Of a stretch of DNA of 64,000 nt, positions 9,985 to 33,144 are shown piece by piece (within the stretch, counting starts at the first letter, position 1; each line of letters opens with the position of its first letter). Source of the stretch: Neofusicoccum parvum. Taxonomy: Eukaryota; Ascomycota; Dothideomycetes; Botryosphaeriales; Botryosphaeriaceae. Where the stretch lies: assembly GCA_020912385.1 (NCBI GenBank), contig CP087211.1, positions 2,046,001 to 2,110,000 on the forward strand, written 5' to 3'. A model generated the notes under the pieces. That model searched no databases. It was not told the origin of the DNA and was given only the letters and a program-made list of their open reading frames with translations. The translations under genes were made by a program, and so were the position numbers.

Positions 9985-10612
9985 GCACGCTATGACCTGC
10001 CGATAGAGGGGCAACGCGTACACCTGCCTCTTGGGACTAGCCGGCTGCTCCTGGCTTTTTACGGAAGCAATGCCGTCTAGAATCGCTTTATAGTGTCCGC
10101 TGTTTCGGAAAGCCTCTTCGAATTGAATTGGAGTTATCGGAACGCGGTACTGGCAGCCATCGCGGACGTGGCGCAGCTCAGGCTCCGCGGTCATCGAGTT
10201 AAGGAAGTCCGTAATCGTCGTAAGCTCCGGGCAGACAAAACCGAGGCCCTCGAAATACTCTTTCGCTTCGGAGGCTTTGCCATAGAAGATCTGACGCCCC
10301 GCGCTAATAACCAGGACTTTGTCGAAGAGAGGAACCATGGAGTTGCTGCCTTGGTACACGCTCATAGCCGTTGCACATCCGTGCTGGTTGGTGAACTCGC
10401 GCATCACCTGGACGAACTCAAGAGCAGTAGATGAGTCCAACCCGTTGGTTGGATTGTCGAAACAAAGGACACTGTGCGCGGCCATCAGGAATCAGCTGAC
10501 CGCATCGTGCGCTTGCGAGACTCACTCCGGACAAGTGGCCATGGCCTCAGCCAACGACACTCTTCTCCTCTCCCCACCACTTACTCCCCGGATGGCCTCA
10601 TTTCCATCCTTT

Positions 10613-11063
10613 TGTTACGGCGTAGCCTACACAGAACCTGGGTAGAAGGAAAGGAAGGACAAGCGGGGCGCCTACGCGCCCGCAAAAAGAAGATCCACCG
10701 GCGGGAAGTCACATGACTCCCGGTTCAGCCGTTCAAAGCCTTGGCACTCTGAACTCCTGAACCGCAGGAGTTCAGACGTTCAACCGCTTGGCGGAATGAA
10801 CCCATGAACTATCAGATTGTATAGACTCTCCTACGTATATAAACCACACTCATTAGCATAGCTTTGACCTTCGTGGTCAACTTCCTTCAATAATCAATCT
10901 ACACCATTGATTAGTAACACGGCCTTCGCACGCAGTGCTCAGTTACGTGTATTCGTCACTTCGTTCTCTCTCGCCCTCTCTTGTACCCACTCAAGGTAAA
11001 CCCTATACGGCTTACCACCCTCTTTGGTGTTTGGATCCTTAGAGGCAGAGGCCCGCCGTTACA
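10613..11063 (+). repeat. LTR family 1, full-length hybrid copy (451 bp)
   Basis: Runs from TGTTACGGCG to CGCCGTTACA, with a TATA-like box (GTATATAAACC, near 10835) in the 3' half. Left flank CCTTT (10608-10612), right flank CTATT (11064-11068): these do not match each other. CCTTT instead matches 16843-16847 and CTATT matches the reverse complement of 33140-33144. The copy is therefore a recombinant of two LTR1 insertions, with its 5' part from the ABC-gene copy and its 3' part from a copy near 33.1 kb. Confidence 0.9.
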
Positions 11064-11106
11064 CTATTATCGTAGCTTGAGGTTGATTTTTTAGTAAGGT
11101 TATATT

Positions 11107-11142
<36 letters not shown>
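11064..11142. other. degraded LINE 5' remnant plus 35-bp T tract
   Basis: 11069-11100 is a C-to-T-decayed reverse complement of the start of the LINE ORF1 (cgtagcttgaggt corresponds to acctcaagctacg at 11168). It is half of an older LINE copy whose other half is at 33145. The T run (11108-11142) is an expanded form of a 7-T run: TATATTGTTTTTTT at 11101-11114 is one copy of the target duplication of the LINE that follows. The second copy is at 27717-27730 in reverse complement. Confidence 0.75.
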
Positions 11143-11143
<1 letters not shown>

Positions 11144-11147
11144 AAAC

Positions 11148-12644
11148 ATGAACATACCAAAAATCCGACCTCAAGCTACGGCTACGGAAGAAACCCCTAG
11201 GGGCTCTTCCAGGCCTCAAAACCCTAGCAACACCCTTCCCAGCAGCTGCAGCAACGTGGTGGTTGGAATTGAGACTATGGAAAGGGCTGAACAACCCCTC
11301 CCAGTACCCACCTCTACCCGCCCCCAGCAGACACCTAAAAGCCTGCAGCGTGGCCAAATCAGCGTAGAATATGTCCAGAGAGCTGCCACAACAGCAGATG
11401 CCATCCTACAAGCCCTCCAGACAATTGCTGGTAGACCTTCAGCCCTCAACAGCCAGATAAAAAATTTTCTCGGCGCCGCCAAGGAAATCTTCCAGGACCA
11501 CATTACCCTCCGCCAGGAGGCAGCAGCCAAGGAACCAAACCTGAAGGATATCCTAAGGGAAGTCAAGCAGGTCCAGAAAACAGTCAGCCGTATCCAGGCA
11601 GCGCCTACACCAACTAGCCCAAGCTGGGCACACATCGCAGCCCAAACAGCCCCAAAGCCTCCCACCCCGCCCACCACCACAGAAATCACCCTCCACCTTC
11701 CAGATGAAGCAAACAGACAGGAAGTAGCAAATCTCCCAAACGAAGCCATCATTCAAAAGATCCAGGCAGGAAAAGGCCTAGCCTGTAAAAGGGTACTCGC
11801 TGCTAGAAAGCTCCCTAGTGGGGATATCAGGATCTTTGTTCCGGACACACAAACAAGGACAGCCCTTCTCCAGGACCAGGAGTGGACCACTGGACTCGGA
11901 AACGAGGTCCGCCCAAATCAACAACTATACTCAGTACTGGTCCACAACGTCCCTGTCAAGGGAATTAACACCACGGATCCCCAGGCCACCAAGGCCCTAC
12001 AGGAGCAAAACCTGGTCTTGCATCCAGGACTGCACATTAGCAAGCTAGCCTGGCTGAAGAAGAAGCTCCCAGAAGGGAAAACACACTCCGCAATCATCCT
12101 CAGTACCATAGACCCTGAGATAGCCAACCAGATTATAGCTAAAGGACTAATCTGCAACTTTGCCCTACACACAGCAGAGTACTATAGTGCGAACTTTACA
12201 GTAACCCAATGCTTCAAGTGCCAGGCATATGGCCACATTGCCACCCACTGTAGGAAAGAACAAAAGTGCGGTCAGTGTGCAGGCAGCCACGATACAAGAG
12301 AGTGCGGAAAGGAGAAAACGCAGTGTGCAAACTGCTCCCAAAAACATACAGCCTGGAGTAACCTATGCTCAGCGCGCAAGGCCCACCAGGCTAGAGCAAC
12401 TCAAGCTCGACTGGCCGCGCCAGGAAACTACAGGGAACAACCCCAAGCAGCCCAAAAGCCAACACAGAATGGATGGACCCTGGTAGGGTCCCGGAAGAGA
12501 ATAAGGGAAGAGGAACCCAGGAGAAGAAAGCCAGGGCTTAACAGCTCCCAACACGCAGCCGAGGTCGAGAACCAGGAAGACCCCCACATACAGGTGGAAA
12601 TACCTACCACTCTACAGGCAGACACAGAGATGGAAGGAAACTAA
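11148..12644 (+). CDS. LINE ORF1 protein (Gag-like, zinc knuckles), copy 1
   Basis: 498 residues starting MNIPKIRPQ. A Pro/Gln/Thr-rich N-terminal half is followed by an RNA-binding-like middle. Three Cys-His knuckles lie near residues 360-410: CFKCQAYGHIATHC, CGQCAGSHDTREC and CANCSQKHTAW. This is the nucleic-acid-binding ORF1 protein that coats LINE RNA. Its stop overlaps the ORF2 start in TAATG (12642-12646), which suggests ORF2 is translated by termination-reinitiation. The start is supported by copy 2, where element sequence begins just 17 bp upstream of the same ATG. Confidence 0.92.
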   Translation: MNIPKIRPQATATEETPRGSSRPQNPSNTLPSSCSNVVVGIETMERAEQPLPVPTSTRPQQTPKSLQRGQISVEYVQRAATTADAILQALQTIAGRPSALNSQIKNFLGAAKEIFQDHITLRQEAAAKEPNLKDILREVKQVQKTVSRIQAAPTPTSPSWAHIAAQTAPKPPTPPTTTEITLHLPDEANRQEVANLPNEAIIQKIQAGKGLACKRVLAARKLPSGDIRIFVPDTQTRTALLQDQEWTTGLGNEVRPNQQLYSVLVHNVPVKGINTTDPQATKALQEQNLVLHPGLHISKLAWLKKKLPEGKTHSAIILSTIDPEIANQIIAKGLICNFALHTAEYYSANFTVTQCFKCQAYGHIATHCRKEQKCGQCAGSHDTRECGKEKTQCANCSQKHTAWSNLCSARKAHQARATQARLAAPGNYREQPQAAQKPTQNGWTLVGSRKRIREEEPRRRKPGLNSSQHAAEVENQEDPHIQVEIPTTLQADTEMEGN

Positions 12645-15600
12645 TGATAAACACAAGCTACCTCTCGATTTTACAGTACAACGTAAATAAAAGTGCAAAG
12701 GGGGTAATGCTCCCACTCTTTCAGGATATCAGTCCAACAGCCCACCACATCCTCGCAATCCAGGAGCCATGGAGGAACCCAAGGACAAAAACAACAGTAA
12801 AACACCCGGCCTACCACACAATCTTCCCCCAGGAAGGAATAGCAAGGACCTGCTTCTTCGTAAGCAAGGCCATTGCCGTAGAATCTTGGCAGACGACAAT
12901 CCACTCTCCAGACCTCATTACCCTCTCCCTTACCACTGCAACCAACGTTATCCACATCCATAACTACTACAACCCTCCCTCTACCCACACAAGCACGGAA
13001 CTAGGGACCCTATCTATTCTGCCAAGAGCCCTTGCTATGCAGGGGCAACATATCCTTCTCGGAGACTTTAATCTCCACCACCCCCTCTGGGGAGGTATTA
13101 CCTCCCCTACACACTATACTCTTGCGAATCACCTAATCGAAACTGCAACTGCAGTAAACCTAAACCTAGCCCTCCCAAGAGGCACTATCACCAGAAGAAG
13201 AGGTAATAGTGAAAGCACTCTAGATCTCATCTTCACTTCCCAGTGGATAGAGGAAAGAATTATAAACTGTGGAGTTAGCTATGAACTAGAGTCATCATCT
13301 GACCACCTACCTATTCTCACAACACTCGACGTCACCCCAACACCTACACTCCCCCAAACTCCAAGACCTCAATGGAAAAAAGCGGACTGGAAGAAGGTAA
13401 ACATAACACTCCAGATGAAGCTTAGGAGCATCAGAACAAGCCAACCAAGCACTGAGATAGAGCTAGACGCCGCCGTCGAACAGATACAGAAGGCCATTCA
13501 GGACACCATCCAGGAAACCATCCCAGCTGCAAAACCCTCACCCTGGGCATCTATCCAGTGGACAAAAGAGTGCTCAGAGCTAGTCCACCAGGCTAGAGCA
13601 GCTAGAAGAAAATGGACCAATACAGGAAAGGAGGAAGATTGGATTGCGTATCAAACTACCGTCAACAGAAAGAAAAGACAAATTAGAAGAGACAGAACAA
13701 AAGCATGGCGAAGAACAGTAGCAGAAATTACCGCCGACCCCTCAGCAATCTGGAAACTGGCGAAGTGGGCCAGAACTAAAGCACTAGAACCATCAACCCC
13801 GCCGCAATTCCCACCTCTACAAGGGACAGACCAGGTCCTGCGTTATGACAACCCCTCCAAGGTAGAAATCCTCGTAAACCAGTTCTTCCCTCCTCCTGAA
13901 GCCGCCGATCTCTCCGATATCAATGGAACTATCTATCCAGAACCGGTAGAAATAGTCCAGGATCTCACCCAGGAACAAATCCTTAATGCCATCAAGCGGC
14001 TTCCCCCCGATAAGGCGCCAGGCCCAGACAAAATAGTTAATAGATTCCTAAAACAGTGTGCGCACACACTAGTAAAGCCCCTTACCAACGTATTCCAGGG
14101 ATGCCTCACACTCTCCTACCACCCTAGACAGTTCAAGTGCTCAACCACAGTTGTCCTAAAGAAGCCACAAAGAGAAGACTACACCAAAGCTAAGGCATAT
14201 AGACCAATTGCCCTACTCAACACGCTTGGCAAACTACTTGAGAAAATCGTAGCGGATAGGATCTCCCAGGCAACTGAGATGTATAGCCTACTCCCTGACC
14301 TACAAATGGGTGCAAGAAGAAACAGATCTGCTGTAGTAGCACTTAACCTCCTAACGGAACAAATCCATACAGTCTGGGCACAGGACCAAAGACTGGTGGC
14401 TTCAGTACTTAGCCTGGACATAACCGGGGCATACGACCGGGTCTCCCACAAGAGGCTCCTCCACAATATTAGAATGGCAAGGCTACCAGTCTGGATAGAG
14501 AGATTCACCCGCTCCTTTCTACAGAACCGCACCACACAATTATCCTTTGGAGACTTTACCAGCCCGCCAATTAAAACCTCAAATGGTATCCCACAAGGAT
14601 CCTCATTATCTCCAATTCTCTACCTCTTCTTCGCCTCCAACCTTCTTACCAAGCTACGCAGGGGCAGCACATTTCCCCTAGGATTCGTTGATGACACCAA
14701 CATCCTTACATTTAGTAGATCCACAGAGCAAAACTGCAGAACGCTAGAGGAAGCGAATAAAACATGCATACAATGGGCGGCAACCCACGGATCAACATTT
14801 GCACCCGACAAGTACCACCTTACTCACTTCACAAGAAGGCCAAAGAAATTCAATATGAATGCAAAAATCCGCATCCCAGGATTTGGAGGAAAACCGGAAC
14901 CAACAGTAAAGATCCTAGGAATTCACGTAGACAGCAAACTACGATGGGGACCCCACATAAAGGAAACTGCCACAAAGGCTGCTAAACAGTATACCTCTCT
15001 ATCCAGGCTTGCAGCATCCACCTGGGGGGCCTCTTTCGCGAAAGCTCGACATATCTACACAGCAGTAGTCAGGCCAGTCCTCACCTACGGCTGTGGGGTG
15101 TGGCATACCCCAGAGGGAACCCCAGGATGGCGTAAAACGGCAAGCAAACCACTAGAAAAGATCCAGAACACGTGCCTCCGCAACATCTCTGGAGCGTATA
15201 AATCCACCAACACCAAAGTCCTAGAACATGAAACAGGAATCCCCCCTCTCCCACTATATCTGGATGAACTTGCCCTCACCCAGGCACTCCGCGCCAAGGA
15301 GAATCCGGTAGCTAAAGTAACAGAGAGGACATGCCAGGACATCAAGGACATAGCCAAAGCGGTGCTAAAGGCTAAGGGCGCAGCTGGCCCAGCCAGGAGA
15401 GTACGACTTCACAAGAGAATCAACTCCCTTATAGAAAGCAGCAAACCCAACACCAGGAAGCTCCCTGAGAAAGCCAGAATCCACATGGCATTTAAGGAAA
15501 TATGGAGGGAGCAATGGACCACGCATATCAATCAAGAAAGAAGAAACAAGCCAGTAGCCCTGAACACGGATTGGACCCCAAGGCTTAGAGACCTACACAA

Positions 15601-16000
15601 GGAGCTATCTAAACCACTCAGCACAATCGCCATCCTACTACGTACAGAGAATATTGGACTGGAGGACTTTCTCTTCAGACGCAAGGTACCGGGACACCCC
15701 AGCCCAGCCTGCCCGTGTGGGTGGCAGAGGCAGACCCCAAAGCACATCCTTCTCTTCTGCCACCACTTCCAGCAGGGAAGGGCACAAATGCTACAAGAGG
15801 CGGGAACTACAGACTACCACTCCCTCCTCTCCACAAAGAAGGGGATTAAGGCAGCGACAGTATGGTTCCTGCGCACGGGGCTTCTAAACCAGTTCAGCCT
15901 AGCCAGGGAAATGTTCCAGGAGGACCACCAGGAGGATCACCAGGAAGACCATCAGGAGGACCACCAGGAGGACTACCAGGAGGACTGGTACGAAGACTGA
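12644..16000 (+). CDS. LINE ORF2 endonuclease/reverse transcriptase, copy 1
   Basis: 1,118 residues. An APE-type endonuclease (EEP) domain fills the first ~230 residues (LQYNVNKSAKG, IQEPWRNP, LLGDFNLHHPLWGG, SSDHLPIL). Reverse transcriptase follows at about residues 430-760 (DKAPGPDKI, YRPIALLNTLGKLLEK, LGFVDDTNIL). A Cys-His motif lies near the C-terminus (CPCGWQRQTPKHILLFCHHF). No RNase H domain is visible, unlike the LINE relics at 40.6 and 59.8 kb. The C-terminus ends in a tandem QEDH repeat coded by a 12-bp unit repeated about five times (around 15915-15985). The enzyme nicks target DNA and primes reverse transcription there. Confidence 0.94.
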   Translation: MINTSYLSILQYNVNKSAKGVMLPLFQDISPTAHHILAIQEPWRNPRTKTTVKHPAYHTIFPQEGIARTCFFVSKAIAVESWQTTIHSPDLITLSLTTATNVIHIHNYYNPPSTHTSTELGTLSILPRALAMQGQHILLGDFNLHHPLWGGITSPTHYTLANHLIETATAVNLNLALPRGTITRRRGNSESTLDLIFTSQWIEERIINCGVSYELESSSDHLPILTTLDVTPTPTLPQTPRPQWKKADWKKVNITLQMKLRSIRTSQPSTEIELDAAVEQIQKAIQDTIQETIPAAKPSPWASIQWTKECSELVHQARAARRKWTNTGKEEDWIAYQTTVNRKKRQIRRDRTKAWRRTVAEITADPSAIWKLAKWARTKALEPSTPPQFPPLQGTDQVLRYDNPSKVEILVNQFFPPPEAADLSDINGTIYPEPVEIVQDLTQEQILNAIKRLPPDKAPGPDKIVNRFLKQCAHTLVKPLTNVFQGCLTLSYHPRQFKCSTTVVLKKPQREDYTKAKAYRPIALLNTLGKLLEKIVADRISQATEMYSLLPDLQMGARRNRSAVVALNLLTEQIHTVWAQDQRLVASVLSLDITGAYDRVSHKRLLHNIRMARLPVWIERFTRSFLQNRTTQLSFGDFTSPPIKTSNGIPQGSSLSPILYLFFASNLLTKLRRGSTFPLGFVDDTNILTFSRSTEQNCRTLEEANKTCIQWAATHGSTFAPDKYHLTHFTRRPKKFNMNAKIRIPGFGGKPEPTVKILGIHVDSKLRWGPHIKETATKAAKQYTSLSRLAASTWGASFAKARHIYTAVVRPVLTYGCGVWHTPEGTPGWRKTASKPLEKIQNTCLRNISGAYKSTNTKVLEHETGIPPLPLYLDELALTQALRAKENPVAKVTERTCQDIKDIAKAVLKAKGAAGPARRVRLHKRINSLIESSKPNTRKLPEKARIHMAFKEIWREQWTTHINQERRNKPVALNTDWTPRLRDLHKELSKPLSTIAILLRTENIGLEDFLFRRKVPGHPSPACPCGWQRQTPKHILLFCHHFQQGRAQMLQEAGTTDYHSLLSTKKGIKAATVWFLRTGLLNQFSLAREMFQEDHQEDHQEDHQEDHQEDYQEDWYED

Positions 16001-16221
16001 AAGGGTACACTAGCGATTGAATGAAGGGCTGCCACAGCAGCCACTACTGGTAAACAGGAAAAACGGAATAAGGAGAGGAAGACATACCTGAGTAGAGAGG
16101 AGGGGTTTTTGCCTGGTGAACATGGTTTTCCCCCTCATGTAAAATAATTGCAGATAGCCAGCCCCGCATGGACCCGTAAGGGAGCTATATCGGGAAGAAA
16201 TGAATTTATCTATCTATCTAT

Positions 16222-16604
16222 CTATACCACGTGCAGCCCCACAAGGACCCACATTGGATCAGAACAGATCCAACCCTCAAATCCATGAGGGCCATCCAAC
16301 CCTCATATCCACGAGGGCCATCCAACCCTCATATCCACGAGGGACATCCAGATTGTCATAGCTTTCCTACAGTATATAAGCACACTCCCTTAGCTAGATA
16401 CTTGACCCTTCGTGGTCAACTCAAAGTAGCAATCTCACTCATTGCTGGTAACGAGTCTTATCACGTGCATTTCAGTCCTCACGTGAACATCCCACTTCTC
16501 TCCTCGCTTATCCTTACCCACTCTTGTCCTCAAGGTAAACCCTTCGGTTACCCAACTCCTACCCGACGACTCCGAAGTCGTGTAGTAGAAGGCACTCCGT
16601 TACA
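16222..16604 (+). repeat. 3' part of an LTR family 2 copy
   Basis: Starts at CTATACCACGTGCAG, the LINE target duplication, and ends GCACTCCGTTACA at 16604. It matches the 3' portion of the LTR at 33439-33885, including a TATA-like box (ACAGTATATAAGCAC). CTCTC (16605-16609) follows it. The missing 5' part, with the matching LINE duplication and the matching CTCTC, is at 32819-32928 in reverse orientation. Confidence 0.88.
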
Positions 16605-16842
16605 CTCTCCTACGTATATAAACCACACTCATTAGCATAGCTTTGACCTTCGTGGTCAACTTCCTTCGATAATCAATCTATACCATTGATTAGTAACACG
16701 GCCTTCGCACGCAGTGCTCAGTTACGTGTATTCGTCACTTCGTTCTCTCTCGCCCTCTCTTGTACCCACTCAAGGTAAACCCTATACGGCTTACCACCCT
16801 CTTTGGTGTTTGGATCCTTAGAGGCAGAGGCCCGCCGTTACA
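16605..16842 (+). repeat. 3' part of an LTR family 1 copy
   Basis: Differs from the corresponding part of 10613-11063 at only a few positions and ends CGCCGTTACA at 16842. It is followed by CCTTT (16843-16847), the duplication that also precedes 10613. Immediately to the right the ABC transporter NBD1 exon resumes in frame. It is the right boundary of the original LTR1 insertion in the transporter gene. Confidence 0.92.
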
Positions 16843-18416
16843 CCTTTGTTTTGAGAACGTGGTTCAAGCCATAGCACTGGGCCAGGGTGTTGACGGCCGT
16901 GTCGATGGTTGCCTTCGATGCCTTTGCACCCCATATCCCGCGGATGGCGAAGCTGCAGACTTGTTAGCAAGCACCCCGAAATAAGGGGGAGAGACCCCCG
17001 GAACATATTGCAGAGTCTTGGCCACTGTCAGAGTGGGGAGATGGCTGTCTTCCTCGGCTAATCTCGTTGCTCAGCTTGGCTCCAGGCAATGCGAAGGCAT
17101 CGCGTTACGTACCGCAAAATGGGACGCGCACCTGGTCCTGATACTTACCGTTTGCCGGCCGACCGCTGTAGGTGATCTCTCTGGTGGTATCTTTGTACTC
17201 CTCACGCATGTTCGCCAGTGTCTTCAGGAATGTCGTACATCCGGTACCAGGCTTGCCAATAACAAGCAATATCTCGCCGCTGCCAACAACCCCCGAGAAT
17301 CCATGGAGCAGGGTGCGGGAAGAGTCTGGCTGGAAGTAGGACCGTGGGTTCATCATGTTTACCCATGATCTCATTGTAGTCCAGACTGTTGGGGCAACGT
17401 CGACCTGGAGAAAAAAGTCAGGAAGAGAGACAATGGCCGTTGGTAGCGGATACGTACACCTCGTCCACTACCCTCCACGAAAAGCTGCTCGAAAAGCACA
17501 GAGGATCTACTGCTTGAAGTCGAGCCATGGCTAGCCAGGAACGCCCTGACAGTCTCGCTGATGCTCTCTCCGTGTTACTCCATAGCCGGCGATGTCGTGA
17601 AAAAACTGTAAGTTGCTCCAAAGCAAATCTTAAATACTGCTGAAAACTGGATTACCAACTAGAAACCCCCTGGCTCGAAGCTGTAGTAGAGGTGGCGTCA
17701 TCCATACTTCCCGTTCGGGGTGTCGTTCGTTGGTTCGGAGACTATACTGGAAACGGCAAGCGAATTTCCCGGATCCAAAAGGACCTTCCGGAGTCCTAAA
17801 GGGGAATTTTAAAGCCGTAAGGCAACTTAACTTCTATAGTAGAGTCGCTAAGTATCGCGGCCTTAAAGCCTTCCTTCCAATCCACCGCCTGATGATGATG
17901 GTGCCCTAGTAGGCGATGAACTTGCGGAACGGAACCCATCTGGGCGGGAGCGTGTACACGTCGCCCCCGTCGTGGATCTGCGTGCGGTTCAGTCAGCATC
18001 ACGGTTGATGGCAAACACGCGGCTGCAGACTCACGGCCAGGTACTGGAATAGGTTCATCTTCCCTCTCTCGTGGAGCATTACATCGTGCCAGTAGCCGTA
18101 CCAGTTCTCGAAGTAGACGCGGTCGAGCTGGTAGTCCATCCCAGCGTCGGACGCTGACAGCACGACCGTCATCTCCTCGGGCGAGTCCGCGTCGATGCGG
18201 AACTGGTGGATGGTGCCGGCGTTAACGGTGAACCCGCAGTCCTCGGGCATGTAGCGGCGGTACTCACCCTCGACCGTGATGCCGAGGATGCCCGACTCGA
18301 CACGGAAGTACTCGGTCTGGTACTTGTGGATGTGCGGATACGGTGTTGCAGGACGCCTTGGCAGCTCCACCTGCTTATTCAGCATAGATAACGAATCGCC
18401 GATCGCTATAATCTTA

Positions 18417-20735
18417 ACGTGTTTCACCAGTAACCTGCGCACCCCAGTGACCTGCGCACCCCACCAAACCCAAGACGCGTCTTCGCGCAAAAACAAACAT
18501 GGCGCCACCACAACTTTCTCAATCACTCTAAAAAGAAGCGAGATTAACTCTTACCTCTTAAGCCTTATAATAGAACCCAAATCAAAGTCGACGCGCTATA
18601 GCACGGTTATACGGTGTTCTAGAATCAACCCTACGGACGCGTCTCTATAGTATCTAAGCTAAACACGAGTTGCCTTCACTCAAGCGAAAGCTACAGCTAT
18701 CTAAAGAGTAGGCTTTAATTAAGTAAGTCCTTAGCCTCGATCGATAAGGATTTCCTCCCTAGATAATCGACGTATAAAGAATAGTAGACTCTTTACTCGC
18801 TGCGCGCGGCCAGAATCCCTCACCTTAACTAGTAGGTAAGAACTAGGTATCTCGCTTTATCGACAACCAGCCTAAGCTTAAAACGAAATGGAATTGAAAG
18901 TTCCACTTATAACGCGCTAAATATAAGGATCTAGGCACGATTAACGCGTAGTTTACGCGTATTTAAGAGACGTGTTAGTTGTACGGCATCCTTAACGACG
19001 ACATCTATAATTTTGACGAGATAGGATTTATAATAGGTGTAGTTATAACGTCTAAAGTCGTTATAAGCTCTAATACTATTAGCTAAGTAGTTACTATACA
19101 GCTAGGGAACCGTGAGTAGACTATAGCGATCGAGGGTATTAACGCGTCTAGCTAGACGATTCCACCGTTCATTATCCTAGTAGGGAAGGTCCACTAGTTA
19201 AACTAGTATCGAGAATTACCGGCTGACTGGGTAATTACTATAAGCGATAATGGTTAGACGATAGACCAGCTTGGATTTAAATAGATCAAGCACTTTAATA
19301 CGTACATAGAGTTCTATATAAAGGGAGCCTACTGTCTCCTCATCCTCGATAGCTATAGTAGTCATACAACGCTAGAATTCGACAACTACTATAGCGTAAA
19401 TAATTTAATCACGCTCTATATACCTACGTATATATCTCATCTTCTCTAACCGCTTAATATAAGCTACTTCTCCCCTCTTAAGCGCTTATACGGCCAAGAA
19501 GTTCAGAAACTCGTCCGCTAAGGAATCTATTATATTAATAAGAATGACTTCCTCTCTATATACTCGAAGACACGCCTATTAGTCTTTACAGATTAAAACA
19601 TTAGAAGCGGTTTCCAGGCTATAGGACTTATACTATATAACCTATAACGCGTGTTATCGTCGCTTACCGTTACTAAAACGCCCTCCCCACCAGGTATAGC
19701 TAGCGGACAAGCACCCTAATAGACTTTAGAAACACCTCGTACTCTAGCTCAGCTAGAGAAGTAGGCTCGGCTTATACGGGATCTTATTAAGCGTTAATCA
19801 CAGAGCCCAACAAACTAAGCATTCAGCCAACTTATAAAGGGATATTAGATAGCGATAAATTCAGTATTACAGCGTAGCTTCCTAGGTAGAGGAGGATAGG
19901 GACCAGCCCCGCCAGAATAATAAAAGTCGGGGTTATAAAGATCTAAGGTCACGTAGCCTCACGCTCAACCAGACCCACCCGCTTAGAACGCTAAGGCTGT
20001 CTAAGCGGATCCTACCTACTAAGCCATCCTACTCAGTCATAATAACCGCTTAGGAAGACCACGCACCTCTAAGCATAATACGACTATTAAGTATATAGAT
20101 TATATAGAACTCTCCTATGTATATAAACCACGCTTACTAGTATAGCTTTAACCCTTCGTAGTCAACTTCGATAATCAATCTACACTATTAATTAGTAATA
20201 CGGCCTTCGCACGCAGTACTTAGTCACGTATATTCATTTATACTTATTCTCTCCCCCTACCTTATACCCACTTAAGGTAAACCCTACACGGCTTACCACC
20301 CTCTTTAGTGTTTGGATCCTTAGAGGCAGAGGCCCGCCGTTACATTCAGCTATAATACTTATAAAGGAGAATTCGGAGCTTCGTATAGCTAATTAACAGC
20401 GAAAACAAAAGCAGCAATACTGAAGAAGATATATTATATAGGGAGACACTCTACAGGCTTAGTAGAGGCAGTTCTTAGTTCACAGGATAGAAAATAGAGA
20501 GGAAGAGGCTGATTAACGAGAAGCGATAGCTATACGATAACGTACGCCGCCGACGTGTAGTAATTATCACTTATAAGGCTATACGATACGGCGATGTCCT
20601 AGTAATCAAAGAGTAGTTAGATAGCTATTTTACTTGAATTTAAGGCGTTGTGGTAGAATATTTGCACGAAGACGCGTCTTGGGTTTAGTAGGATGCGCAG
20701 GTCACTGGGGTGCGTAGGTTACTGGTGAAACACGT
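18417..20735. mobile_element. Fot1/Pogo-type DNA transposon, RIP-degraded
   Basis: Ends are long inverted repeats of about 70 bp: ACGTGTTTCACCAGTAACC at the left, its reverse complement at the right, and a GCGCACCCC repeat inside. A TA dinucleotide sits on each side (18415-18416 and 20736-20737), as expected for Tc1/mariner-Pogo insertion. A decayed plus-strand transposase can be traced at 19.3-19.6 kb with blocks resembling LLILDSYSSHTTLEF and SYFSPLKRLYGQEVQKL, the D-rich core and a motif typical of Fot1 DDE enzymes, broken by stops. About 1.8 kb remains after subtracting the LTR nested within it. It lies inside the solo LTR 18344-20864. Confidence 0.85.
19865..20344 (+). repeat. solo LTR of family 1, RIP-degraded, inside the Fot1 transposon
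   Basis: Starts TATTACAGCGTAG (a decayed TGTTACGGCGTAG) and ends CGCCGTTACA at 20344, flanked by a perfect TTCAG duplication (19860-19864 and 20345-20349). It aligns with the 451-bp LTR at 10613 with many C-to-T and G-to-A differences. It is the innermost layer of the nest in cupin copy A. Confidence 0.85.
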
Positions 20736-24600: not shown

Positions 24601-27159
24601 TACACAACGAAGCTGGACAACAATACGAAGCCGTTCCCGGGGAGCCACCCGCTGCACGGCACCGAAATCGTGCCCGCCGCAGTGCTTGTGAACACCTTCC
24701 ACCACGCCACCGGGGCGTCGACGCTCTCCAACATCACGCTGCGCGTGCCAGTCGCCATCAACGCGCCGCGCGAAGTCCAGGTGGTTGTGCAGGACGACAC
24801 GGCCAGAATTGTGTCGCGGCTGCAGCAGAGCGACTCGGGCGACGGCCATTCGTGGGTGACGCATACGACAGCCGGACAGTGGACGGGCGAGAAGGCTGCG
24901 GTGCAGCCGCCGAAGCTGGATGTGGAGGCAGTCAAGAAGCGTATCGGAGCCACGTTGGCGTCCAACTTCTCCATCGATTACCTCGACAAGGTCGGCGTGT
25001 CGGCCATGGGTTTCCCCTGGGCTGTCACGGAGCACTACGGCAATCTCAAGGAGATGGTTGCTCGGGTCGATGTTGCTCCCGACGTCCCCGCCGATGCGGC
25101 ACTGCCTTGGGACCCTACGTCGTGGGCTTCCATCCTCGATGCTGCCACTTCAGTGGGATCGACCATCTTCTTCGACAACCCCGAGCTGCGCATGCCTGCC
25201 CAGATCGAGAAGGTGCACTTCTTCACCGAGTACGGCACGCCGCCGCCTAAGACCGGATACCTGTACGTCGAGGAGGCATCCGAGCGCGGGGCACCTGCGG
25301 TTCACGTCAGCGTGTGCAGCGAGGACGGACAGGTGCTGGCCAAGTTCGAGTCGATGCGCTTCTCGGAGATCGAGGGCACTCCAGGCGTGAGCGGCAGCGT
25401 CGAGAGCCTCGTCCACCAACTCGCCTGGGAGCCTGCGCCCTTCTCCAACAAACCCGCCTCGTGGGACGGCGTCGTCCTGGTCTCGGACGACGCCGCCACG
25501 CTCGCCAAGTACAGCAGCCAGCTCAAGAACCAGACCAAGAAGCTCACCCAGCTGTCCCGCGCATCCGACATCGCCAACGCCCCCATCGCCCCCAACACCG
25601 CCATCGTCTACTGCCCCAGCCCGGTCTCCGCCCTCGCCGACGTGCCCGCCAAGTCCGAAGCCTTCATCGCCGAGCTGCTCACCCTGACCAAGCACGTCGT
25701 CCGCGAGCACGCCTCGCTCGCCAACACCAAGGTGTTCACGCTCACGGCGAGCGTTGCCGCCGCCGAGACCGCCACGGCGCTGGCCCACGCCCCGCTGCAC
25801 GGGCTGGGCCGCATCATCGCGTCGGAGCACCCGGACCAGTGGGGCGCCCTGATCGATGTCGACGACGAGCACTCGCCCTTCCCCACGCTGGCGCTGAAGT
25901 ACGTGCAAGACCAGGACGTGGTCCGCATGGCGGACGGGCTCCCGCGCGTCGCACGCCTGCGGCCGCTGCCGCGCGAGCGCCTGTACGGCGCGGCCGAGGC
26001 GGCGACGCGCACGCTGCTCCCGCGGCCCCAGGGCACGTACGTCGTCACCGGCGGGCTGGGCGCGCTGGGCCTGGAGGTCGCCTCCTTCCTCGTCGAGAAG
26101 GGCGCGCGGCGCATCGTCCTGCTCTCCCGCCGCGGCCTGCCGCCGCGCCGCGAGTGGAGGCGCCTCGACACCGCGTCCCCGCTCTTCGCGGCGGTCTCGC
26201 GCATCCAGGCGCTCGAGCAGGCGGGCGCCACGGTCTCAGCGCTGGCGCTCGACGTCGGCGCGCCGGACGCGGCGGAGCGGCTGCTCGCCGCGCTGGACGT
26301 CGCCGGCCTGCCCCCTGTGCTGGGCGTCGTGCATGCCGCCGGCGTGCTCGAGGACCAGCTGGTGCTTGACACCACGCCCGACTCGTTCGCGCGCGTGCTG
26401 GCGCCCAAGGTGGCGGGCGCGCTGGGGCTGGCGGCGGCGTTCCCGCCGGGCACGCTGGACTGGCTGGTGCTGTTCAGCAGCTGCGGGCAGCTGTTCGGGT
26501 TCCCGGGGCAGAGCAGCTACGCCAGCGGGAACGCGTTCCTGGACGCGCTGGCGGCGCACCGGCGCGCGCAGGGCGACAACGCCGTCGCGGTGCAGTGGAC
26601 CAGCTGGCGCGGGCTGGGCATGGCCGCCAGCACCGACTTCATCGACGCCGAGCTCGAGAGCAAGGGCATCACCGACGTCTCGGTCGAGGAGGCCTTCCGC
26701 GCGTGGGAGCACCTCGCCCGCTACGACGTCGACCACGGCGTCGTGCTGCGCAGCCGCGCCTTCGACGCCGGCGAGCCGCTGCCCGCGCCCATCCTTGAGC
26801 ACATCGCCGTGCGCCGCGCCGGCTCCTCCGCGGCGGCGGCCGGGGCCGCCGCTGCTGATGCGGCTGCAGGCAGCGATGGCGAGGCCAGGCCGGCGGGCGG
26901 GCCCGAGCTGAAGGCCTGGCTCGAAGCCCGCATCTGCGAGAGCGTCGCGTCGGTGTTGATGCTGGGCGCCGACGAGGTTGACTCGCGCGCCGCCATCGCC
27001 GACCTGGGCGTCGACAGCGTCATGACCGTCACCCTGCGCAGGAAGCTGCAGTCCACCCTGAAGGTCAAGATCCCGCCCACCCTGACCTGGAGCCACCCCA
27101 CCGTCAGCCACCTCGTCGGCTGGTTTGCCGAGAAGCTGACCGCCGCCGACGCGAAGTGA
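21664..27159 (+). CDS. 6-methylsalicylic-acid-synthase-type polyketide synthase
   Basis: Partially reducing iterative type I PKS. Exon 1 is 21664-21780 and exon 2 is 21844-27159, with a 63-bp GTAAG...CAG intron in phase 0, giving 1,810 residues. 6-MSA synthases are about 1,770-1,800 residues and commonly have one short intron near the start. Domains: KS with active-site Cys214 ([14 protein letters not shown]); AT with Ser667 ([12 protein letters not shown]); DH/thioester-hydrolase with His974 ([10 protein letters not shown]); KR with NADPH motif near residues 1439-1448 ([10 protein letters not shown]); ACP with Ser1764 (DLGVDSVM). There is no ER, methyltransferase or terminal thioesterase, as usual for this class, which joins one acetyl and three malonyl units and reduces once. 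No stop or frameshift is visible. The predicted product is 6-methylsalicylic acid, the entry metabolite of patulin, terreic acid and yanuthone pathways; which one applies here is open. Confidence 0.93.
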
Positions 27160-27730
27160 GCGGGTTGCTGGCGGTCAGATGCATATGCTGGTGCTTTTTT
27201 TCCTTGCTGTCGTCCTGGCGGGTTGGCTTTACTTTTACTATACGAAATCAAGTCAGTTGTATAAAAGCGAAGTCCGAGTGTCTGGCTCCTGAGCCCACTG
27301 CAGTCCTGAAGGTGCGAGCCGCCTGCCCTGAGCAGGCGAGCAGCATGCGAGAACCGTGCGAGTCACGTGACCATCGCTTAGCTCAGCTCTCGGCCCACCG
27401 CGGCCATACCGAATCCCTTAAGGATTCGTCTGTCAATTGAAGCCATCGGCTTGTGTGCCATCTCTGAACTCCCTATTCCCCTCTAGTCCTCATACTACTT
27501 CTCTCGTTCTTTATCCTTATGCCTCTTATTCTTAAGATAAACCCTTTAGTTATTTAACTTCTACTCGACGACTTTGAAGTCGTGTAGAAGAAGGCCCGCT
27601 AACGTGGTTTATTAGCGAGCCGCGTATATCAGCGACCTATATACTTTTCCTTAATACTACTACTCTTTATCTTCCGTACGCATTTTCTCTATAGCTAAGT
27701 ATACGAATTGAGAAAGAAAAAAACAATATA
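27160..27730. other. PKS 3' flank with a decayed LTR2 fragment and LINE target duplication
   Basis: The first ~330 bp hold the PKS terminator region; no gene is seen. About 27490-27610 is a RIP-altered 3' portion of LTR family 2, recognisable by the block around ACTCGACGACTTTGAAGTCG. An AT-rich stretch follows. AAAAAAACAATATA (27717-27730) is the reverse complement of the LINE duplication TATATTGTTTTTTT at 11101-11114. Confidence 0.6.
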
Positions 27731-27948
27731 GATAGATAGATAAATTCATTTCTTCCCGATATAGCTCCCTTACGGGTCCATGCGGGGCTGGCTATCTGCA
27801 ATTATTTTACATGAGGGGGAAAACCATGTTCACCAGGCAAAAACCCCTCCTCTCTACTCAGGTATGTCTTCCTCTCCTTATTCCGTTTTTCCTGTTTACC
27901 AGTAGTGGCTGCTGTGGCAGCCCTTCATTCAATCGCTAGTGTACCCTT

Positions 27949-30900
27949 TCAGTCTTCGTACCAGTCCTCCTGGTAGTCCTCCTGGTGGTCCTCCTGATGG
28001 TCTTCCTGGTGATCCTCCTGGTGGTCCTCCTGGAACATTTCCCTGGCTAGGCTGAACTGGTTTAGAAGCCCCGTGCGCAGGAACCATACTGTCGCTGCCT
28101 TAATCCCCTTCTTTGTGGAGAGGAGGGAGTGGTAGTCTGTAGTTCCCGCCTCTTGTAGCATTTGTGCCCTTCCCTGCTGGAAGTGGTGGCAGAAGAGAAG
28201 GATGTGCTTTGGGGTCTGCCTCTGCCACCCACACGGGCAGGCTGGGCTGGGGTGTCCCGGTACCTTGCGTCTGAAGAGAAAGTCCTCCAGTCCAATATTC
28301 TCTGTACGTAGTAGGATGGCGATTGTGCTGAGTGGTTTAGATAGCTCCTTGTGTAGGTCTCTAAGCCTTGGGGTCCAATCCGTGTTCAGGGCTACTGGCT
28401 TGTTTCTTCTTTCTTGATTGATATGCGTGGTCCATTGCTCCCTCCATATTTCCTTAAATGCCATGTGGATTCTGGCTTTCTCAGGGAGCTTCCTGGTGTT
28501 GGGTTTGCTGCTTTCTATAAGGGAGTTGATTCTCTTGTGAAGTCGTACTCTCCTGGCTGGGCCAGCTGCGCCCTTAGCCTTTAGCACCGCTTTGGCTATG
28601 TCCTTGATGTCCTGGCATGTCCTCTCTGTTACTTTAGCTACCGGATTCTCCTTGGCGCGGAGTGCCTGGGTGAGGGCAAGTTCATCCAGATATAGTGGGA
28701 GAGGGGGGATTCCTGTTTCATGTTCTAGGACTTTGGTGTTGGTGGATTTATACGCTCCAGAGATGTTGCGGAGGCACGTGTTCTGGATCTTTTCTAGTGG
28801 TTTGCTTGCCGTTTTACGCCATCCTGGGGTTCCCTCTGGGGTATGCCACACCCCACAGCCGTAGGTGAGGACTGGCCTGACTACTGCTGTGTAGATATGT
28901 CGAGCTTTCGCGAAAGAGGCCCCCCAGGTGGATGCTGCAAGCCTGGATAGAGAGGTATACTGTTTAGCAGCCTTTGTGGCAGTTTCCTTTATGTGGGGTC
29001 CCCATCGTAGTTTGCTGTCTACGTGAATTCCTAGGATCTTTACTGTTGGTTCCGGTTTTCCTCCAAATCCTGGGATGCGGATTTTTGCATTCATATTGAA
29101 TTTCTTTGGCCTTCTTGTGAAGTGAGTAAGGTGGTACTTGTCGGGTGCAAATGTTGATCCGTGGGTTGCCGCCCATTGTATGCATGTTTTATTCGCTTCC
29201 TCTAGCGTTCTGCAGTTTTGCTCTGTGGATCTACTAAATGTAAGGATGTTGGTGTCATCAACGAATCCTAGGGGAAATGTGCTGCCCCTGCGTAGCTTGG
29301 TAAGAAGGTTGGAGGCGAAGAAGAGGTAGAGAATTGGAGATAATGAGGATCCTTGTGGGATACCATTTGAGGTTTTAATTGGCGGGCTGGTAAAGTCTCC
29401 AAAGGATAATTGTGTGGTGCGGTTCTGTAGAAAGGAGCGGGTGAATCTCTCTATCCAGACTGGTAGCCTTGCCATTCTAATATTGTGGAGGAGCCTCTTG
29501 TGGGAGACCCGGTCGTATGCCCCGGTTATGTCCAGGCTAAGTACTGAAGCCACCAGTCTTTGGTCCTGTGCCCAGACTGTATGGATTTGTTCCGTTAGGA
29601 GGTTAAGTGCTACTACAGCAGATCTGTTTCTTCTTGCACCCATTTGTAGGTCAGGGAGTAGGCTATACATCTCAGTTGCCTGGGAGATCCTATCCGCTAC
29701 GATTTTCTCAAGTAGTTTGCCAAGCGTGTTGAGTAGGGCAATTGGTCTATATGCCTTAGCTTTGGTGTAGTCTTCTCTTTGTGGCTTCTTTAGGACAACT
29801 GTGGTTGAGCACTTGAACTGTCTAGGGTGGTAGGAGAGTGTGAGGCATCCCTGGAATACGTTGGTAAGGGGCTTTACTAGTGTGTGCGCACACTGTTTTA
29901 GGAATCTATTAACTATTTTGTCTGGGCCTGGCGCCTTATCGGGGGGAAGCCGCTTGATGGCATTAAGGATTTGTTCCTGGGTGAGATCCTGGACTATTTC
30001 TACCGGTTCTGGATAGATAGTTCCATTGATATCGGAGAGATCGGCGGCTTCAGGAGGAGGGAAGAACTGGTTTACGAGGATTTCTACCTTGGAGGGGTTG
30101 TCATAACGCAGGACCTGGTCTGTCCCTTGTAGAGGTGGGAATTGCGGCGGGGTTGATGGTTCTAGTGCTTTAGTTCTGGCCCACTTCGCCAGTTTCCAGA
30201 TTGCTGAGGGGTCGGCGGTAATTTCTGCTACTGTTCTTCGCCATGCTTTTGTTCTGTCTCTTCTAATTTGTCTTTTCTTTCTGTTGACGGTAGTTTGATA
30301 CGCAATCCAATCTTCCTCCTTTCCTGTATTGGTCCATTTTCTTCTAGCTGCTCTAGCCTGGTGGACTAGCTCTGAGCACTCTTTTGTCCACTGGATAGAT
30401 GCCCAGGGTGAGGGTTTTGCAGCTGGGATGGTTTCCTGGATGGTGTCCTGAATGGCCTTCTGTATCTGTTCGACGGCGGCGTCTAGCTCTATCTCAGTGC
30501 TTGGTTGGCTTGTTCTGATGCTCCTAAGCTTCATCTGGAGTGTTATGTTTACCTTCTTCCAGTCCGCTTTTTTCCATTGAGGTCTTGGAGTTTGGGGGAG
30601 TGTAGGTGTTGGGGTGACGTCGAGTGTTGTGAGAATAGGTAGGTGGTCAGATGATGACTCTAGTTCATAGCTAACTCCACAGTTTATAATTCTTTCCTCT
30701 ATCCACTGGGAAGTGAAGATGAGATCTAGAGTGCTTTCACTATTACCTCTTCTTCTGGTGATAGTGCCTCTTGGGAGGGCTAGGTTTAGGTTTACTGCAG
30801 TTGCAGTTTCGATTAGGTGATTCGCAAGAGTATAGTGTGTAGGGGAGGTAATACCTCCCCAGAGGGGGTGGTGGAGATTAAAGTCTCCGAGAAGGATATG

Positions 30901-31305
30901 TTGCCCCTGCATAGCAAGGGCTCTTGGCAGAATAGATAGGGTCCCTAGTTCCGTGCTTGTGTGGGTAGAGGGAGGGTTGTAGTAGTTATGGATGTGGATA
31001 ACGTTGGTTGCAGTGGTAAGGGAGAGGGTAATGAGGTCTGGAGAGTGGATTGTCGTCTGCCAAGATTCTACGGCAATGGCCTTGCTTACGAAGAAGCAGG
31101 TCCTTGCTATTCCTTCCTGGGGGAAGATTGTGTGGTAGGCCGGGTGTTTTACTGTTGTTTTTGTCCTTGGGTTCCTCCATGGCTCCTGGATTGCGAGGAT
31201 GTGGTGGGCTGTTGGACTGATATCCTGAAAGAGTGGGAGCATTACCCCCTTTGCACTTTTATTTACGTTGTACTGTAAAATCGAGAGGTAGCTTGTGTTT
31301 ATCAT
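27949..31305 (-). CDS. LINE ORF2 endonuclease/reverse transcriptase, copy 2
   Basis: 1,118 residues with the same translation as the ORF2 at 12644-16000: endonuclease domain (GDFNLHHPLWGG), reverse transcriptase (FVDDTNIL), C-terminal Cys-His motif and QEDH repeat. Overlapping antisense frames also match copy 1, so the DNA itself is near-identical. It lies directly downstream of and convergent with the PKS, so readthrough could produce antisense RNA to the PKS 3' end; that is speculation. Confidence 0.94.
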   Translation of the reverse strand: MINTSYLSILQYNVNKSAKGVMLPLFQDISPTAHHILAIQEPWRNPRTKTTVKHPAYHTIFPQEGIARTCFFVSKAIAVESWQTTIHSPDLITLSLTTATNVIHIHNYYNPPSTHTSTELGTLSILPRALAMQGQHILLGDFNLHHPLWGGITSPTHYTLANHLIETATAVNLNLALPRGTITRRRGNSESTLDLIFTSQWIEERIINCGVSYELESSSDHLPILTTLDVTPTPTLPQTPRPQWKKADWKKVNITLQMKLRSIRTSQPSTEIELDAAVEQIQKAIQDTIQETIPAAKPSPWASIQWTKECSELVHQARAARRKWTNTGKEEDWIAYQTTVNRKKRQIRRDRTKAWRRTVAEITADPSAIWKLAKWARTKALEPSTPPQFPPLQGTDQVLRYDNPSKVEILVNQFFPPPEAADLSDINGTIYPEPVEIVQDLTQEQILNAIKRLPPDKAPGPDKIVNRFLKQCAHTLVKPLTNVFQGCLTLSYHPRQFKCSTTVVLKKPQREDYTKAKAYRPIALLNTLGKLLEKIVADRISQATEMYSLLPDLQMGARRNRSAVVALNLLTEQIHTVWAQDQRLVASVLSLDITGAYDRVSHKRLLHNIRMARLPVWIERFTRSFLQNRTTQLSFGDFTSPPIKTSNGIPQGSSLSPILYLFFASNLLTKLRRGSTFPLGFVDDTNILTFSRSTEQNCRTLEEANKTCIQWAATHGSTFAPDKYHLTHFTRRPKKFNMNAKIRIPGFGGKPEPTVKILGIHVDSKLRWGPHIKETATKAAKQYTSLSRLAASTWGASFAKARHIYTAVVRPVLTYGCGVWHTPEGTPGWRKTASKPLEKIQNTCLRNISGAYKSTNTKVLEHETGIPPLPLYLDELALTQALRAKENPVAKVTERTCQDIKDIAKAVLKAKGAAGPARRVRLHKRINSLIESSKPNTRKLPEKARIHMAFKEIWREQWTTHINQERRNKPVALNTDWTPRLRDLHKELSKPLSTIAILLRTENIGLEDFLFRRKVPGHPSPACPCGWQRQTPKHILLFCHHFQQGRAQMLQEAGTTDYHSLLSTKKGIKAATVWFLRTGLLNQFSLAREMFQEDHQEDHQEDHQEDHQEDYQEDWYED

Positions 31306-32801
31306 TAGTTTCCTTCCATCTCTGTGTCTGCCTGTAGAGTGGTAGGTATTTCCACCTGTATGTGGGGGTCTTCCTGGTTCTCGACCTCGGCTGCGTGTTG
31401 GGAGCTGTTAAGCCCTGGCTTTCTTCTCCTGGGTTCCTCTTCCCTTATTCTCTTCCGGGACCCTACCAGGGTCCATCCATTCTGTGTTGGCTTTTGGGCT
31501 GCTTGGGGTTGTTCCCTGTAGTTTCCTGGCGCGGCCAGTCGAGCTTGAGTTGCTCTAGCCTGGTGGGCCTTGCGCGCTGAGCATAGGTTACTCCAGGCTG
31601 TATGTTTTTGGGAGCAGTTTGCACACTGCGTTTTCTCCTTTCCGCACTCTCTTGTATCGTGGCTGCCTGCACACTGACCGCACTTTTGTTCTTTCCTACA
31701 GTGGGTGGCAATGTGGCCATATGCCTGGCACTTGAAGCATTGGGTTACTGTAAAGTTCGCACTATAGTACTCTGCTGTGTGTAGGGCAAAGTTGCAGATT
31801 AGTCCTTTAGCTATAATCTGGTTGGCTATCTCAGGGTCTATGGTACTGAGGATGATTGCGGAGTGTGTTTTCCCTTCTGGGAGCTTCTTCTTCAGCCAGG
31901 CTAGCTTGCTAATGTGCAGTCCTGGATGCAAGACCAGGTTTTGCTCCTGTAGGGCCTTGGTGGCCTGGGGATCCGTGGTGTTAATTCCCTTGACAGGGAC
32001 GTTGTGGACCAGTACTGAGTATAGTTGTTGATTTGGGCGGACCTCGTTTCCGAGTCCAGTGGTCCACTCCTGGTCCTGGAGAAGGGCTGTCCTTGTTTGT
32101 GTGTCCGGAACAAAGATCCTGATATCCCCACTAGGGAGCTTTCTAGCAGCGAGTACCCTTTTACAGGCTAGGCCTTTTCCTGCCTGGATCTTTTGAATGA
32201 TGGCTTCGTTTGGGAGATTTGCTACTTCCTGTCTGTTTGCTTCATCTGGAAGGTGGAGGGTGATTTCTGTGGTGGTGGGCGGGGTGGGAGGCTTTGGGGC
32301 TGTTTGGGCTGCGATGTGTGCCCAGCTTGGGCTAGTTGGTGTAGGCGCTGCCTGGATACGGCTGACTGTTTTCTGGACCTGCTTGACTTCCCTTAGGATA
32401 TCCTTCAGGTTTGGTTCCTTGGCTGCTGCCTCCTGGCGGAGGGTAATGTGGTCCTGGAAGATTTCCTTGGCGGCGCCGAGAAAATTTTTTATCTGGCTGT
32501 TGAGGGCTGAAGGTCTACCAGCAATTGTCTGGAGGGCTTGTAGGATGGCATCTGCTGTTGTGGCAGCTCTCTGGACATATTCTACGCTGATTTGGCCACG
32601 CTGCAGGCTTTTAGGTGTCTGCTGGGGGCGGGTAGAGGTGGGTACTGGGAGGGGTTGTTCAGCCCTTTCCATAGTCTCAATTCCAACCACCACGTTGCTG
32701 CAGCTGCTGGGAAGGGTGTTGCTAGGGTTTTGAGGCCTGGAAGAGCCCCTAGGGGTTTCTTCCGTAGCCGTAGCTTGAGGTCGGATTTTTGGTATGTTCA
32801 T
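31305..32801 (-). CDS. LINE ORF1 protein, copy 2
   Basis: 498 residues, same translation as copy 1, with three Cys-His knuckles near the C-terminal third. The frame stays open upstream to an ATG at 32895-32897, but those extra 32 codons lie in LTR2 host sequence plus 17 bp of LINE leader, outside the family ORF. The ATG at 32799-32801 is therefore the start. Stop and ORF2 start overlap in TAATG as in copy 1. Confidence 0.92.
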   Translation of the reverse strand: MNIPKIRPQATATEETPRGSSRPQNPSNTLPSSCSNVVVGIETMERAEQPLPVPTSTRPQQTPKSLQRGQISVEYVQRAATTADAILQALQTIAGRPSALNSQIKNFLGAAKEIFQDHITLRQEAAAKEPNLKDILREVKQVQKTVSRIQAAPTPTSPSWAHIAAQTAPKPPTPPTTTEITLHLPDEANRQEVANLPNEAIIQKIQAGKGLACKRVLAARKLPSGDIRIFVPDTQTRTALLQDQEWTTGLGNEVRPNQQLYSVLVHNVPVKGINTTDPQATKALQEQNLVLHPGLHISKLAWLKKKLPEGKTHSAIILSTIDPEIANQIIAKGLICNFALHTAEYYSANFTVTQCFKCQAYGHIATHCRKEQKCGQCAGSHDTRECGKEKTQCANCSQKHTAWSNLCSARKAHQARATQARLAAPGNYREQPQAAQKPTQNGWTLVGSRKRIREEEPRRRKPGLNSSQHAAEVENQEDPHIQVEIPTTLQADTEMEGN

Positions 32802-32818
32802 GTTTTTTTGCCCCGCTT

Positions 32819-32923
32819 CTGCACGTGGTATAGCACGTGATGTCTTCCTTGGCGTTTGTTCCTGCGCCCGTTGTCCGCGCTTCTCGTCTTTCCTCATCTC
32901 TTATCGGACTGGGGTTCGTAACA
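32819..32923 (-). repeat. 5' part of an LTR family 2 copy
   Basis: On the minus strand it starts TGTTACGAACCCCAGTCC (32923) and runs to the LINE duplication CTATACCACGTGCAG. It resembles the start of the family 2 LTR at 33439. GAGAG (32924-32928) flanks it, the reverse complement of the CTCTC at 16605-16609. It is the missing left half of the LTR2 copy whose right half is at 16222-16604. Confidence 0.82.
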
Positions 32924-33139
32924 GAGAGTCTATACAATCTGATAGTTCATGGGTTCATTCCGCCAAGCGGTTGAACGTCTGAACTCCTGCGGTTCAGGAG
33001 TTCAGAGTGCCAAGGCTTTGAACGGCTGAACCGGGAGTCACGTGACTTCCTGCCGGTGGATCTTCTTTGCGGGCGCGTAGGCGCCCCGCTTATCCTTCCT
33101 TTCCTTCTACCCAGGTTCTGTGTAGGCTGCGCCGTAACA
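32924..33139 (-). repeat. 5' part of an LTR family 1 copy
   Basis: On the minus strand it runs from TGTTACGGCG (33139) to GACTCTC (32924) and matches 10613-10830 with a handful of differences. It is flanked on the right by AATAG (33140-33144), the reverse complement of CTATT at 11064-11068. With 16605-16842 it makes one complete LTR1, split by LTR2 and the LINE. Confidence 0.88.
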
Positions 33140-33144
33140 AATAG

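Follow-up and report, generated by a model that had tools for sequence, protein, structure and literature searches.

Crossed target site duplications at a Neofusicoccum parvum polyketide synthase locus as a probable record of recombination between inverted retroelements

The subject of this study is a 64,000-nucleotide stretch of the Neofusicoccum parvum genome (the window: positions 2,046,001 to 2,110,000 of contig CP087211.1, assembly GCA_020912385.1) in which a segment carrying a polyketide synthase (PKS) gene, here called P, lies between mobile elements of two kinds. Homologous copies stand in opposite orientation at the two ends of this segment, as a pair of long interspersed nuclear elements (LINEs) and as a pair of long terminal repeats of one family (LTR1), and in both pairs the target site duplications are swapped between the copies. 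The best explanation, to which we give a probability of about 0.83, is that the locus was formed by nested insertions followed by homologous recombination between inverted copies of both kinds of element.

Swapped duplications and the history they suggest

The locus reads as follows (positions in the window, strand in brackets):

6712-10612 (-): left flank L, the later part of a broken ATP-binding cassette (ABC) transporter, with ABC2_membrane and ABC_tran Pfam matches of its pieces
10613-11063 (+): full-length LTR1, 451 bp, resembling a solo LTR, with TG..CA ends and mismatched flanks (CCTTT and CTATT)
11064-11114 (-): Q, a short piece of an old repeat, formerly contiguous with the right flank at 33140
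11144-16221 (+): LINE copy A, 5078 bp
16222-16604 (+): 3' part of a second LTR, LTR2, continuous with the 5' part in the uninterrupted copies L074 and L075
16605-16842 (+): 3' part of the split LTR1
16848-27716: segment P, in its starting orientation, each repeat pair having inverted it an odd number of times
27728-32805 (-): LINE copy B, inverted relative to copy A
32806-32923 (-): 5' part of LTR2, including a short filler at the LINE 5' junction
32924-33139 (-): 5' part of the split LTR1, with CTATT on its outer side
33140-33302 (+): right flank R, a fragment of an old repeat that begins with the AATAG duplication and is continuous with Q in paralogs

The two LINEs show 0 differences over 5078 bp. 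In copy A, the frame at 12542-16000 has endonuclease and reverse transcriptase matches and the open frame at 11145-12644 has no Pfam match. When the halves of the split LTR1 are joined with a single CTCTC, they align end to end with the full copy, with 8 differing columns. The filler (32806-32818, AAGCGGGGC and a run of A) separates LINE copy B, at its 5' end, from the duplication, and extra bases are found at this place in some other LINE copies.

Five duplications connect the two sides of the locus. In these lines LTR1b denotes the LTR1 that received LTR2, and LTR1a the other:

CCTTT, 10608-10612 and 16843-16847 (+): left and right halves of the duplication of LTR1b, exact
CTATT, 11064-11068 (+), and its reverse complement at 33140-33144, where the right flank starts with AATAG: duplication of LTR1a, exact
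CTCTC, 16605-16609 (+), and its reverse complement at 32924-32928 (-): duplication of LTR2 inside LTR1b, exact
CTATACCACGTGCAG, 16222-16236 (+), 3' half, and its reverse complement at 32819-32833 (-), 5' half: duplication of the LINE inserted in LTR2, exact
TATATTGTTTTTTT, 11101-11114 (+), 5' half, and its reverse complement at 27717-27730 (-), 3' half: duplication of the LINE between P and Q, exact

The initial annotation had given these five at the same coordinates and had described all of them as crossed. Every one (5/5) is exact, and the description holds for CCTTT, CTATT and both LINE duplications; CTCTC, however, is LTR2's own duplication, the halves of which have been carried apart. The LTR1 at 10613 and both LINE copies do, as that annotation had it, pair the wrong duplications. 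The LTR1 stands between exact CCTTT and CTATT, and the best match of each LINE 5' flank at the locus is the 3' flank of its partner (15 and 14 bp), with next-best matches of 7 bp and of an 11-bp run of T. The initial CTAT and TAT of the LINE duplications can also be read as the CTAT tail of the LINE, leaving unambiguous cores of about 11 bp.

Before any rearrangement, the order would have been L - LTR1b (with LTR2 inside it and LINE 1 inside LTR2) - P - LINE 2 (inverted) - Q (inverted) - LTR1a (inverted) - R. Crossing over of the two LINEs, which lie in opposite orientation, would turn P around, and a crossover between the 5' parts of the inverted LTR1 copies would invert the whole stretch between those copies. 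The net result would be P in its starting orientation, with every LTR1 and LINE copy flanked by half of its own duplication on one side and half of its partner's on the other; the LTR1 at 10613-11063 would be a product of the LTR1 x LTR1 exchange. A block model with one LINE exchange and one LTR1 exchange reproduces the present order exactly, in either sequence of events.

A further exchange of either kind would uncross the same flanks, and the duplications therefore record parity, that is, an odd number of each. Taken at face value, the sequence would prove at least one exchange of each kind, the number of each being odd and two exchanges in all being the minimum. Of the two inversions proposed initially, a LINE exchange and an LTR1 exchange are each upheld, but the exact count is not, as only odd parity is recorded. 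The return of the PKS segment to its starting orientation, part of the same proposal, is borne out by the block model and by the neighbouring positions of the L and P sequences in a paralog on contig C4, described below. The order of events had been said to be beyond telling. The duplications indeed do not fix it, but the lengths of the repeats lean weakly towards the LTR1 exchange as the earlier one: all 451 bp of LTR1 were free to pair before the insertion of LTR2, and only the first ~216 bp (97% identical) afterwards. We infer that crossovers in this lineage made the exchanges, and likewise infer how many there were and in what order.

LINE copies A and B have two substitutions in common (LINE positions 2787 and 2940) that are absent from the other near-identical LINE copies compared wherever these cover the site (7/7 and 9/9). 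Private substitutions of this sort would be expected of copies that exchange sequence or are kept alike by conversion, or of a parent and its daughter. Together with the identity of the two copies, they fit homogenisation and, equally, a parent and daughter copy.

Uninterrupted joins and genome-wide controls

Outside the short duplications, uninterrupted target sequence was found for three of the four joins (Q-R, L-P and LTR2), in paralogs or other copies only. For Q-R, the reverse complement of Q (91-94% identity) passes directly into R (91-96%) in 4/4 paralogs (L069-L072), and in all four the overlap of the two matches is exactly 5 bp, the five bases of the duplication. These paralogs are the best four of at least 12 other genome places whose match to R begins at base 1, among the 40 scored of 116 candidates. 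Such uninserted continuity is what a former position of LTR1a between Q and R would predict. Q has 78% identity with the LINE 5' end over 41 bases (E 1.6e-4), and Q and R together may be a decayed relative of the LINE.

For L-P, the exon pieces from the two sides were searched separately, without being joined beforehand. The P-side exon (16844-16951) matches over all 36 residues, with 61% identity, at C4:402072-402179, the only place in the genome outside the window that matches it; the L-side exon matches over residues 2-28, with 96% identity, at C4:401988-402068. The two lie on the same strand, one codon apart (the place of L residue 1) and with no stop, and P is therefore back in its starting place and orientation. 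A PDB search with the 36-residue P exon had a Hax3 repeat protein as its sole match, which was taken as chance, and the genome paralog was used instead. LTR2 is continuous over the LINE site in two of three other copies (L074 and L075, with 325-351 bases of the 3' half), and the third, L073, aligns in place over the first 64 bases of the 3' half only.

The LINE control comprised 26 copies for which both ends were available, from a set of 27 5' flanks and 29 3' flanks. In each genome family search 40 candidates were scored (of 60, 217, 159 and 116), and all family counts are lower bounds. An in-place duplication of 12-17 bp was found in 11 of the 26 copies, nine of them by a fixed rule and two by inspection (C12:2135648, 12 bp, and C12:2046749), the rule having missed these through tail length and a cut-off base. 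Six of the 26, or six of the 17 resolvable copies, make up three reciprocally crossed pairs, all inverted and each on a single contig. Beside the pair at the PKS locus these are:

C2:3800424-3805497 (+) and C2:3806245-3808656 (-): crossed LINE pair 0.75 kb apart, 17 and 13 bp in common (L008, L046, L044)
C18:768172-773249 (+) and C18:249415-251625 (-): crossed LINE pair 517 kb apart, 12 and 13 bp in common (L047, L049, L076)

When the 3' flanks were shuffled, one-way matches of at least 10 bp arose 0.525 times per shuffle over all 27 x 29 flank pairs. Three one-way (non-reciprocal) rows were observed: one between C1 and C12, in copies with a flank in common, and two that match C9:2446809 over 10 bp. 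Chance would produce a two-way match far more rarely than a one-way match, and three two-way matches were seen.

In the C2 and C18 pairs, one of the two joins was in each case found uninterrupted in another sequence. One set of swapped flanks at C2 consists of two overlapping pieces of a single LTR1-like element (LTR1 positions 223-304 and 298-441, 77-79% identity). The copies of the C2 pair stand tail to tail, and the 0.75 kb between them resembles a solo LTR2 next to an LTR1-like end. At C18, L050 carries one of the swapped joins uninterrupted (81% and 86%); for the other, the 5' flank of C18d matched only itself and the 3' flank of C18b one other sequence, partially. The full-length copy of this pair differs from copy A at 86 positions in its last 2.2 kb, none of them in the last ~300 bp, and is by these differences a recombinant. 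Its partner has 4 differences over the whole 2.2 kb and is without the diverged tail expected from a clean reciprocal crossover; some one-way conversion must therefore be supposed. The C18 pair bears what look like the marks of a large inversion within this contig, which is 876 kb long. The crossed pairs suggest that crossing over between inverted young LINEs is frequent in this genome.

Among 35 copies of the LTR1 family, 21 have an exact in-place 5-bp duplication and 14, the two locus copies included, do not. One of the 14, L019, has flanks that differ by one base (TTCTT and CTCTT), and L020, by flanks and place apparently a duplicate of L019, was excluded from the count. Twenty of the 35 were picked by hand among the matches listed (100 of 117 and 100 of 178 places), as 5' and 3' ends lying ~430-490 bp apart; other end pairs with that spacing in the same listings were not taken into the count. 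A reciprocal double match occurs among the 14 unmatched copies in the locus pair only. Across contigs C5, C6 and C18, 5-bp flank matches link L010 with L021 (CTTAC) and L033 with L010 (CCTGC). These are two cross-contig coincidences against ~0.18 expected, and neither is reciprocal; they are possibly traces of exchange between chromosomes, or chance, and are not counted as exchanges here. Little can be read from one mismatched LTR, and the 5-bp LTR1 matches alone are weaker evidence than the LINE matches.

Competing explanations and known systems

Several observations weigh against the proposed history. The P-Q join has the 14-bp duplication TATATTGTTTTTTT as its sole evidence; about half of that duplication is a run of T, and comparison of the end of P with the four Q-R paralogs gave weak, scattered matches only. 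LINEs A and B are identical, which makes the crossover point invisible, and the LTR1 variants do not reveal a crossover either: the 8 differing columns of the pair show no haplotype pattern across 12 other copies. For 9 of the 26 LINE copies the comparison gave no match, in place or crossed, and mismatched flanks are in themselves common in the LTR1 family (14 of 35 copies, the locus pair included). The assembly order, finally, is taken on trust, and one wrong join at the identical LINEs would look just like the LINE exchange.

Were there such a misjoin, the true genome would carry the LTR1 exchange alone, with P inverted, and the 100% identity of the LINEs over 5078 bp means that one error would suffice. 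We hold this to be distinctly improbable. An assembly of 44.0 Mb in 18 contigs suggests long reads, which would span a 5-kb repeat, and the LTR1 copies have 8 differing columns over their short length. The copies of the C18 pair, moreover, differ by ~4.5% outside the last ~300 bp, and a misjoin there would need reads shorter than that. A single recombination event with two crossovers, one in LTR1 and one in the LINE, between inverted arms paired as a hairpin would reach the same end state as the two exchanges favoured above, since it consists of those same exchanges; it would swap the short middle pieces, and P would never be inverted in an intermediate. The arms are indeed collinear on both sides (LTR1 - short heterology - LINE). 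Two close reciprocal crossovers around the heterology would, however, be required at once, whereas lone LINE x LINE exchanges are indicated at two other places in the same genome, where independent exchanges seem to happen, and we regard a single event as improbable.

There is a negligible probability that the elements were inserted independently in their present places and that the duplications match by accident or target preference. The LTR1 matches are only 5 bp long, and inexact flanks occur in 14 of the 35 family copies, which is what chance would have in its favour. It was rejected on the LINE matches, which extend over 15 and 14 bp at the expected sites, on the continuity of Q-R and L-P in paralogs, and on the split LTR1 and LTR2 halves, which are complementary pieces of one element on opposite strands. 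One-way gene conversion was also set aside: copying a single flank, it would not yield the two products together. Alternative transposition is reportedly dependent on the ends of a cut-and-paste transposon. It too was rejected, as the elements here do not provide such ends: the LINE has endonuclease and reverse transcriptase matches, and LTR1 is a 451-bp TG..CA element with in-place duplications in 21/35 copies. The LINE and solo-LTR-like copies of the PKS locus differ from the elements of the maize case, where inversions are described as caused by transposon ends (PMC8225341).

Recombination between inverted copies, the history preferred here, is a phenomenon of known kind. A study of the Galileo inversion 2z3 in Drosophila buzzatii reads ectopic recombination from duplications that are exchanged, and element copies that are chimeric, at the ends of an inversion (PMC2775673). 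Like the PKS locus, 2z3 has copies in opposite orientation, exchanged duplications attributed to ectopic recombination and secondary nested insertions; it is described there as a single inversion, involves a DNA transposon, and was studied with non-inverted chromosomes sequenced as well (PMC2775673). The PKS locus differs in having two types of retroelement and a segment that is back in place, and in that its empty sites are known from paralogs and other copies only. As to chimeric copies, one recombinant copy is seen in the C18 pair; the locus LINEs are identical and the LTR1 variants unsorted. A second parallel is the 24-kb flip/flop region of Saccharomyces chromosome XIV, where inverted repeats are homogenised and the region re-inverts (PMC9731477). 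There too a segment lies between near-identical inverted repeats, of 4-5 kb, although these are host genes and both orientations are known (PMC9731477). At the PKS locus, in contrast, the repeats are LINEs and LTRs, one orientation is known and the history is read from duplications. Among the titles and abstract starts of open-licence papers on Neofusicoccum inversions, and on fungal or retroelement inversions with exchanged duplications, no fungal case was recognised. Three things are unusual here: two types of retroelement acted on one segment, the inversions are hidden in the net result, and a single assembly is enough for the test.

A single assembly can record a rearrangement that has undone itself, where gene order alone would call the segment unmoved, and the crossed-duplication test allows crossing over between inverted LINEs to be counted without any relative. 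This bears on the reshuffling of fungal metabolite clusters and on reversed inversions missed by gene-order comparison. It is a tentative and rather doubtful further suggestion that the young inverted LINEs are live flip points, with the PKS segment and the 517-kb stretch of C18 flipping often and both orientations coexisting in populations. If this were true, gene-cluster orientation and the landscape of crossing over would be polymorphic, and each LINE duplication would be a readable record of parity.

Genes and other features of the window

Three genes or gene parts lie on segment P:

16844-17467 (-): N-terminal part of the ABC transporter, with the first nucleotide-binding domain, at the left end of P
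17999-18550 (-): Cupin_2 protein gene, inside P
21817-27159 (+): polyketide synthase, an open frame of 1780 amino acids with the domains KS-AT-DH-KR-ACP

The LTR1 insertion interrupts the ABC transporter gene next to the cluster; a paralog of this gene lies at C4:402 kb. Within its N-terminal part, 17105-17467 has an ABC_tran match of 24.6 bits, slightly below the curated cut-off of 25. The L-side exon (10525-10608, minus strand), which meets CCTTT, aligns with CDR1 residues 296-317 (E 0.00056), and the transporter of the left flank is probably full-size and of the pleiotropic drug resistance (PDR) type.

The PKS is 99% identical to a Neofusicoccum ribis protein and 78% identical to an N. parvum protein. 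The source names of its relatives are Type I Iterative PKS and 6-methylsalicylic acid synthase (6-MSAS). Between 17999 and 55590 there are PKS, cupin, P450, amidohydrolase, epimerase, transcription factor and oxidoreductase matches, together with a second, weak cupin match under the cut-off; by its gene content this region looks like a 6-methylsalicylate-type cluster. The terremutin cluster of N. parvum contains, among others, PKS, P450, transcription factor and MFS transporter genes (PMC8948911).

An Rfam search of the whole window at gathering level gave no match. At 56323-61018 there is a further element with RVT_2 and RNase H matches, presumably of the Copia type. Identical 145-bp repeats are found at 56400 and 60874, with a partial inverted copy at 9776-9984.

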